Positions 11,801 to 12,752 of a DNA stretch of 64,000 bases are shown piece by piece. Both the position numbers and the translations under genes were made by a program. The DNA lies in the NCBI RefSeq assembly GCF_900102185.1, contig NZ_LT629690.1, positions 496,001 through 560,000 of the forward strand, given 5' to 3'. The stretch comes from Terriglobus roseus. GTDB lineage: Bacteria; Acidobacteriota; Terriglobia; Terriglobales; Acidobacteriaceae. The notes beneath the pieces are model-generated. The model was not told where the DNA came from and ran no database searches. It was given only the letters and a program-made list of their open reading frames with translations. Positions within the stretch are counted from its first letter, which is position 1, and each line of letters starts with the position of its first letter.

Positions 11801-12532
11801 TTACTCTCCAACAGAATCTTCTGGTCGCAAGTCGGAGTGTCGCACTGCGATTCGCTCGTCGAAGATGTAGCAATCACCCTTCCATTGGCTTTCTTCTGCC
11901 GGGGTTTCCTCCAGGTAACGCAGAATCCCGCCACGTAGGTGATACACCTCTGGAAAGCCTTGCTGCAGCATGTAAGCGGAAGCCTTTTCGCAACGAATGC
12001 CACCCGTACAGAACATCGCTACCTTCGTATGTCGTGCCGGATCAAGATGCTCCTGCACCCATTGCGCGAAGTCTGAGAACTTTTCGAGGGGAGGCATTAC
12101 GGCTCCTTCGAAGGTTCCGATCTCAGTCTCGTAGGTATTGCGGGTGTCCAGAAGAAGCACATCGGGGCTGGAGATCAACTCATTCCAACCCACAGGCTCA
12201 ACATACTTACCGGGTCGCGCTGGATCCACTGGGTCATCTGTGCGAAAGGTAATGATCTCGCGCTTGCGCTTGAATTTCAGGCGACGGAAGGGCGGCTTCT
12301 CACTGTAAGAAAACTTCACCTCGGCGCGATCCAATCCCGCGCGCTCCACAAGCAGATTCAGAAACTGCTCCATTGTCTCTGCTGAGCCTGCCATCGTGCC
12401 ATTGATTCCTTCGGGCGCCAACAGCGTGGTGCCGCGCAGGTCAGTAAGGGCAAACTTCTCATGCAGTTCGTCACGCAGACTCTGCGGATCGGTGAGAGCG
12501 AAGAAGCGATAAAAGGCAGCGACCGTGTACAT
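11801..12532 (-). CDS. trhO: Rhodanese-domain tRNA uridine-34 hydroxylase TrhO (YceA family)
   Basis: 243 residues. Oxygen-dependent hydroxylation of U34 in some tRNAs (ho5U formation) is the known role of this family. An N-terminal ferredoxin-like domain (to about 95) contains LLAPEGINGTMAGS. The rhodanese domain follows, with LLLDTRNTYE (127-136) and the active-site loop FCTGGIRCEKAS, where Cys175 is the expected catalytic residue and Cys181 the second conserved Cys. The start is placed at ATG 12532, 7 bases after a GGAA site; nine further residues upstream have no such site. It lies next to a tRNA gene. Confidence 0.93.
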   Translation of the reverse strand: MYTVAAFYRFFALTDPQSLRDELHEKFALTDLRGTTLLAPEGINGTMAGSAETMEQFLNLLVERAGLDRAEVKFSYSEKPPFRRLKFKRKREIITFRTDDPVDPARPGKYVEPVGWNELISSPDVLLLDTRNTYETEIGTFEGAVMPPLEKFSDFAQWVQEHLDPARHTKVAMFCTGGIRCEKASAYMLQQGFPEVYHLRGGILRYLEETPAEESQWKGDCYIFDERIAVRHSDLRPEDSVGE

Positions 12533-12640
12533 CTTGTTTCCAGTGTAAAAGCCGCGCAAAGCAGTGGGAGCGCTTGCTCAAGCAAATTGCTCAAGTGCGA
12601 GGCTATGTTCATGAAAATCTGGCTGGAAAAGAGAAGTGAA

Positions 12641-12717
12641 TGGTGACCCGGGCAGGAGTCCAACCTGCGACCTTCGCCTTAGGAGTGCGCCGCTCTATGC
12701 AACTGAGCTACCGGGCC
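12641..12717 (-). tRNA. tRNA-Arg (anticodon CCT), CCA end encoded, with C19-G56 instead of G19-C56
   Basis: On the minus strand a full cloverleaf folds: acceptor GGCCCGG/CCGGGTC (one G-T pair), D stem GCTC/GAGC, anticodon loop CTCCTAA (anticodon CCT, decoding AGG), T stem GCAGG/CCTGC, discriminator A and an encoded CCA (12641-12643). Two near-invariant positions are changed together. The D loop reads AGTTGCATA (C at position 19) and the T loop TTGGACT (G at 56), so the elbow pair G19-C56 has become C19-G56. The anticodon stem GCGCA/GGCGA has purine-purine mismatches at its two ends (27-43 and 31-39). Otherwise intact; it is probably functional but should be checked. Confidence 0.92.
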
Positions 12718-12752
12718 ACGTTTCGCTAGTGTAGCTGAATCATTCCAGTAAT

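Follow-up and report, generated by a model that had tools for sequence, protein, structure and literature searches.

Reversal of the elbow pair 19-56 as a recurrent feature of predicted AGR-reading arginine tRNAs in Terriglobus roseus, other bacteria, and phages

The genome of Terriglobus roseus encodes a tRNA-Arg(CCU) in which the elbow pair joining the D-loop and the T-loop, taught as a nearly invariant G19-C56, is reversed to C19-G56. As judged by sequence comparison, this reversal (the flip) is a recurrent, isoacceptor-biased feature of predicted AGR-reading arginine tRNAs across several phyla as well as phages, and the T. roseus gene probably specifies a working AGG-reading tRNA-Arg whose elbow has been kept by a compensatory change from G19-C56 to C19-G56. 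The initial annotation of this DNA had called the reversed pair a striking exception. That description holds within the genome, where the pair is the lone flip among 46 tRNAs, but not beyond it, given the recurrence in AGR-reading arginine tRNAs. No report of a natural bacterial C19-G56 pair was found at the level of abstracts and passages in the open-access literature searched, and within that literature the recurrent, arginine-biased flip appears to be undescribed. In the available passages of one ribosome structure report, C19-G56 is written without remark for the A-site tRNA (PMC10944890).

The gene occupies positions 12641 to 12717 on the minus strand of the window (the whole 64-kb stretch of DNA analysed, itself part of one 4.85-Mb contig) and comprises nucleotides 1 to 76 of the tRNA, with the CCA encoded. 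It was called by ARAGORN and matched the Rfam tRNA model (RF00005) over its full length at 52.5 bits, the gathering score being 29. With the stems verified pairwise, all seven pairs of the acceptor stem form, one of them as G2-U71, and every pair of the D-stem and T-stem is formed. The anticodon stem has one mismatch at each end, G27.A43 and A31.G39, as had been pointed out in the initial annotation. G18-U55, U54-A58, U8-A14, G15-C48, G53-C61, U33, A20, and A73 are all normal, and 19-56 is the sole changed tertiary pair among those checked. By tRNA-convention numbering of the sequence, C19 (the D-loop half of the pair) lies at 12699 and G56 (the T-loop half) at 12661. The anticodon CCU, which reads AGG, is at 12681 to 12683 (ARAGORN and base-by-base numbering), and positions 12678 to 12686 hold the anticodon loop and the A31.G39 mismatch that closes it (in Granulicella and Edaphobacter, A31.C39). 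The swap described initially is thereby borne out by ARAGORN, Rfam, and the numbering, with the gene placed on the minus strand. The arginine identity bases A20, C35, U36, and A73 are present, the identity set given in the available text of PMC9976931 being A20, C35, U36, and A/G73. The gene thus combines a cloverleaf, CCA, arginine identity, and a Watson-Crick 19-56 pair, as a bacterial elongator tRNA-Arg(CCU) does, and departs from the canonical elbow (G19 and C56) in having C19 and G56. It shows neither the broken stems nor the flank-like divergence of a pseudogene.

Within T. roseus the change is confined to this tRNA. The genome yields 46 Rfam tRNA matches and 46 distinct tRNAs by ARAGORN; 45 of the 46 have C56, tRNA-Arg(CCU) being the lone departure, and an ordinary, separate tRNA-Arg(UCU) is also encoded. 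Arg(CCU) is likewise the only non-canonical tRNA in Brevundimonas diminuta ATCC 11568 (43 Rfam places, 40 distinct tRNAs called) and in Pyrinomonas methylaliphatogenes K22 (42 places, 42 distinct tRNAs), so that the specificity in the three genomes is 1/46, 1/40, and 1/42 distinct tRNAs.

Relatives were searched in 61 genomes and then in 200 genomes of the family, with loci called by ARAGORN. The flipped tRNA-Arg(CCU) is present in 16 of 19 Terriglobus genomes (T. roseus and 15 of 18 others); a strict-pattern search did not find it in the remaining three (G012, G016, and G018, which are 94, 80, and 94% complete). Beyond Terriglobus it occurs in Granulicella, Edaphobacter, Tunturiibacter, and Bryocella, and the family search found it in members of the genera coded g50, g80, g82 (genome G107), and g83, while the Arg(CCU) genes read from other genera of the family, order, and class have G19-C56. 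This is the comparison with Acidobacteriota relatives that the initial annotation had called for, and the conservation of C19-G56 in Terriglobus and related genera means that the gene is not a local mutant. The tRNA is near-invariant across the genera of the flipped clade, while its flanking DNA differs from species to species. Because the flip is conserved in relatives, it is not a product of chance or of sequencing error. A decayed gene, an attachment-site remnant, or an assembly error might be suspected from the low Rfam score (rank 42 of 46 in the genome) and the anticodon-stem mismatches, but such an origin is extremely improbable in view of the near-invariance across genera with diverging flanks, the complete cloverleaf, a conserved promoter-like box, and the presence of the flip in many independent assemblies; decay, chance, and assembly error are refuted by the conservation across relatives.

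At 31-39, where unflipped relatives of the family, order, and class have U31-A39, the flipped clade carries A31.C39 or A31.G39, a change through which decoding may be altered. Among the tRNAs read, the 31.39 mismatch was seen only in the flipped clade, whereas the 27.43 mismatch is present in unflipped relatives too (e.g., at loci L724 and L720).

Upstream of the gene lies a −10-like box, TACACT, at −16 to −11 from nucleotide 1 (12728 to 12733, minus strand), which is conserved upstream of the flipped tRNA. Of 62 distinct upstream regions, 51 contain it within 90 bases of the gene, in 36 cases at −14 to −16, against 0 of 62 downstream regions; base shuffling gives an expectation of 1.5 on average and 6 at most (of 62). 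The T. roseus tRNA-Arg(CCU) is an intact elongator tRNA that is very probably expressed. Directly downstream, on the 3′ side, is the gene for a UPF0176 rhodanese protein (11801 to 12559, minus strand), which we take to be a TrhO-like tRNA hydroxylase.

AGG accounts for 57 of 1033 arginine codons in the long open reading frames of the window, a mechanically chosen set of which some are probably not genes. Reassignment of AGG, such that the tRNA would no longer be an arginine tRNA, has a parallel in algal mitochondria, where CCU tRNAs are a site of reassignment according to the available text of PMC7609411. Here it is highly implausible: A20, C35, U36, and A73 are retained, and in the DinB gene codon 67, an AGG, is matched in alignment to an arginine of DNA polymerase IV. 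A wider codon-alignment test yielded only nine aligned AGG positions, three at Arg and three at Lys, and R234 of NrnA, a single case encoded by AGG, falls at an unconserved site.

Several lines of evidence favor compensation at the elbow. The initial annotation had read the double change as compensatory rather than as decay or error, and this reading has gained in strength: the flip is fixed across related genera, and each of 86 distinct Arg(CCU) sequences has a Watson-Crick pair at 19-56 (55 G-C, 25 C-G, and 6 U-A). These sequences, all with a 9-base D-loop, come from the Terriglobia, Caulobacterales, and Blastocatellia, with those of the flipped-only scan left out. Shuffling, in which relatedness is not kept, gives Watson-Crick pairing in a mean of 42.9 and a maximum of 57 sequences over 2000 shuffles. 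On a tree made without columns 19 and 56, 15 state changes are needed, of which at least 5 are forced by supported branches; this tree is rough, with few columns and poor resolution, and its 85-sequence Arg(CCU) set includes 22 sequences chosen for the flip. The covariation suggests that pairing at 19-56 weighs more than the identity of both bases in Arg(CCU). As to how the flip reached these lineages, a single origin via lateral transfer is not favored: Brevundimonas locus L853 and the unflipped Caulobacterales locus L854 differ at two sites besides 19 and 56.

Other bacteria were surveyed by scanning a species collection for tRNAs of all kinds that have C19 and G56 in one type of D-arm. Of the 40 to 46 tRNAs in a genome, no more than 6 to 9 fit this pattern, and 2 to 5 of those are arginine tRNAs (3/7, 2/6, and 5/9 of the pattern-fitting tRNAs in three genomes). 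At least 119 stretches were returned, and among the matches listed 107 are Arg(CCU), a count biased upward by the pattern. The 107 represent 24 distinct sequences and are phylogenetically clustered, with 52 labeled as Caulobacteraceae, 29 as Acidobacteriaceae, 4 as Blastocatellia, and 1 each as Parvularculaceae and Oscillospiraceae, and with 9 Acidobacteriota and 6 Alphaproteobacteria among those without a family label. Single records labeled as Rhodanobacteraceae, Alcaligenaceae, and Verrucomicrobiota, of Acidobacteriaceae or Brevundimonas type, may be misbinned. The remaining listed matches are three called Pyl by ARAGORN (their loop reads UCU), one Arg(UCU), one CCU tRNA with G33, three Thr(UGU), one Gly(UCC), one Ser(ACU), and two without a called tRNA.

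Among 200 Caulobacterales genomes, the 13 closest matches are all C19-G56, and the next one (L854) is G19-C56. Among 147 Blastocatellia genomes, 28 distinct sequences were read, 12 with C19-G56, 6 with U19-A56 (loci L879, L880, L882, L887, L894, L896, and L930), and 10 with G19-C56, proportions that are no measure of frequency in loci picked by similarity to a flipped tRNA. U19-A56 could be a stepping stone, leading through a U19.G56 wobble to C19-G56. The Blastocatellia genome G599 encodes a flipped Arg(CCG) (L875 and L925) in addition to its flipped Arg(CCU); that at L925 may have arisen by duplication and a change of anticodon. In cyanobacteria, flipped tRNAs of Arg(UCU) type are found at L166, L202, L237/L830, and L253, three of them called Pyl by ARAGORN. 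The tRNA at L830 lies in a dense tRNA array, and Symploca (G308) has an ordinary Arg(UCU) too (L828).

Two kinds of odd tRNA were also seen. Loci L192, L283, and L344 encode class I tRNAs of arginine-like build (short variable loop, A20, and C19-G56) with the serine anticodons ACU or GCU and are possibly mis-reading tRNAs or mis-calls, and a metagenome-assembled genome of the Flavobacteriales has a CCU tRNA (L171) with a flipped elbow and G33 in place of the invariant U33.

In 2.9 million viral contigs, a generic class I tRNA pattern with C19 and G56 matched 90 stretches, of which 82 were called as tRNAs, 54 of the 82 being Arg(UCU) or Arg(CCU). A matched control with the same pattern and G19 and C56, in which 111 of 120 listed stretches were used, gave 31 of 162 Arg(UCU/CCU) among the matches listed. 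Relative to these listed controls, the two isoacceptors are enriched in flipped viral tRNAs (odds ratio, 8.1; p 1.4e-12), also when each flipped sequence is counted once (42/65; odds ratio, 7.7; p 1.5e-10). Flipped Arg(CCU) genes of Brevundimonas and Blastocatellia type are found in viral contigs too, and some viral flipped tRNAs of bacterial type may be prophage ends. State-neutral searches put these numbers in proportion. Among the matches listed for viral Arg(UCU) with a GNATA D-loop, 115 of 120 are G-C, 2 A-U, 1 U-A, and 2 A-C; since 0 of these 120 is C19-G56, the flip is rare even in viral Arg(UCU). The matches listed for viral Arg(CCU) comprise 113 of 120 G-C, 3 U-A, 1 A-U, 2 C-G, and 1 G-U, and those for viral tRNAs with U20, nearly all non-arginine, comprise 128 of 134 G-C, 1 A-U, 4 A-C, and 1 U-C. 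Uncompensated states thus exist in viruses, as in the 2 of 120 listed Arg(UCU) with A19-C56.

The number of flipped Arg tRNAs in viral contigs might suggest that the flip shields the tRNA from an elbow-reading nuclease or toxin, much as phage tRNAs evade anticodon nucleases. To our knowledge, however, tRNA-Arg is not the specific target of any known elbow-reading nuclease, and neither of the two neighboring genes annotated in the window (UPF0176 and GcpE) is a phage gene. Phage tRNAs escape through changes in the anticodon loop, and the available text of the report concerned mentions neither the D-loop, the T-loop, nor the elbow (PMC10264068). We regard evasion of such a nuclease as very unlikely.

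The 3′ half of the gene, from about the anticodon loop to CCA (12641 to 12686, minus strand), corresponds to the core of an attachment site that is duplicated in relatives. The search of the T. roseus genome found no second copy of this half. In at least 7 of 23 flipped-clade genomes, plus G004, second exact or near-exact copies lie at least 11 kb off or on another contig (G231 was left out of the count, its tRNA being cut by a contig end). Three relatives (G211, G075, and G013) have the duplicated 3′ half together with an integrase: islands of about 11, 16, and 18 kb (L901, L902, and L903, respectively) lie between the copies, each with a tyrosine integrase gene (PF00589), one with a TrwC relaxase, and one with an Abi-alpha gene. 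Within 90 bases downstream of the tRNA at L217, L256, L259, L708, and L716, its 3′ end recurs as short copies that may be left over from earlier integrations (4 of 62 regions by strict match).

Mobile elements could accordingly have driven the flip, if attP supplied the 3′ half including base 56, the host kept base 19, and a changed base 56, either brought in or selected to evade the integrase, was then compensated. The duplicated 3′ halves, the three integrase-bearing islands, the flipped Arg(CCU) in viral contigs, and the cyanobacterial flipped Arg(UCU) in a tRNA array (L830) are all in keeping with this. We nevertheless consider it improbable: every core copy in the three islands already has G56, which makes the direction indistinguishable, U19-A56 occurs too, and no other tRNA is flipped in the three complete tRNA sets.

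We favor instead the maintenance of a working elbow through compensation. In the available literature, residue 57 is sandwiched between the 18-55 and 19-56 pairs (PMC7912444), and the flat face of the elbow pair is used by the ribosome, RNase P, and T-box RNAs (PMC4810234). Because the reversed pair is still a Watson-Crick pair, the L shape and the stacking face used by RNase P and the ribosome should persist. Modification would be affected differently. TruB and Pus4 accept a T-loop of the form 53-GUUYRANYC-61, as given in a passage of PMC7912444, and the T. roseus Arg(CCU) T-loop, GUUGGACUC, fails this consensus, having G at position 56 where Y is stated. The T. roseus genome contains a TruB gene, and Psi55 is predicted to be low or absent in the flipped tRNA, since position 56 is a purine and off the TruB consensus.

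This mismatch with TruB can also be turned around: the flip may have been selected to escape at least one elbow reader, the purine at 56 making the tRNA a deliberately hypomodified form that decodes differently or differs in stability. The two states that recur in bacteria (C19-G56 and U19-A56) each place a purine at 56, the consensus needs a pyrimidine there (PMC7912444, in the passage available), the enzyme is encoded in T. roseus, and the state is near-invariant within flipped clades. Viral Arg tRNAs with A19-U56 (3 of 240 listed) retain the pyrimidine, however, and escape in itself leaves the choice of arginine unexplained; we judge it unlikely. A broader version, which we put forward only tentatively and do not expect to hold, is that AGR-reading arginine tRNAs constitute an elbow class of their own whose pyrimidine-purine flips repeatedly evade one elbow reader, and that this reader is the enzyme forming Psi55, an integrase acting at attB, or a defense that cuts tRNAs, with RNase P and the ribosome, which read stacking only, blind to the flip.

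Two factors may let AGR-reading arginine tRNAs cross the valley between paired states more often than other tRNAs. tRNA-Arg(UCU) could read AGG by wobble, and Arg(CCU) is probably partly redundant, such that imperfect intermediates could survive. ArgRS, for its part, would grip A20, beside position 19, and hold the D-loop itself. A20 is the main arginine determinant in Escherichia coli and unique among the 20 families, and its contacts are the initial recognition step, as described in the available passages of PMC9976931; the contact of ArgRS with A20 is thus a suggested reason why arginine tRNAs may tolerate adjoining changes. Neither factor alone explains the bias: in the three complete tRNA sets the other C34 tRNAs are unflipped, which speaks against redundancy as the sole cause, and Arg(ACG) and Arg(CCG) are unflipped too, which speaks against the ArgRS grip as the sole cause.

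The occurrence of G-C, U-A, and C-G in one isoacceptor of culturable bacteria is a natural series for which the other tRNAs of the same cells are internal controls. It allows one to ask which elbow readers sense only the stacked pair and which sense the bases, whether Psi55 formation in vivo is sensitive to base 56, and why arginine tRNAs in particular may change 19-56. It also shows, as a caution for tRNA gene finding and for the design of orthogonal tRNAs, that the G19-C56 rule has a systematic exception.

The non-protein tRNA-Gly of Staphylococcus, which serves cell-wall synthesis, has a naturally altered D-loop GG (18-19) that is uncompensated; in the T. roseus tRNA, the change is compensated and G18 is kept. 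The closest counterparts, the ordinary Arg(CCU) tRNAs of other genera of the family (such as those among L720 to L726 and L941 to L959), resemble it in length, cloverleaf, anticodon, A20, and genomic role but have G19-C56 and U31-A39, in contrast to the C19-G56 and A31.G39 or A31.C39 of the flipped clade. tRNA-Pyl and type II mitochondrial tRNAs likewise lack the G18 G19 and T-Psi-C consensus, but as described in the available text they lose or replace the interaction (PMC7609411), whereas the T. roseus tRNA, otherwise normal, keeps it with the partners swapped. Nuclease-evading phage tRNAs are, as here, deviant tRNAs in phages; in the passages available their change is in the anticodon loop (PMC10264068), unlike the flip, which lies in the elbow and is also fixed in bacterial chromosomes. 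The same reversed pair is known from human mitochondrial tRNA-Ser(UGA), in which, according to the available text, charging is lost with G19C and regained with C19:G56 or A19:U56, so that pairing rather than identity matters to that synthetase (PMC10412605). That C19:G56 is a laboratory double mutant of a mitochondrial serine tRNA, whereas the flip in T. roseus is natural, chromosomal, in an arginine tRNA, and recurrent.
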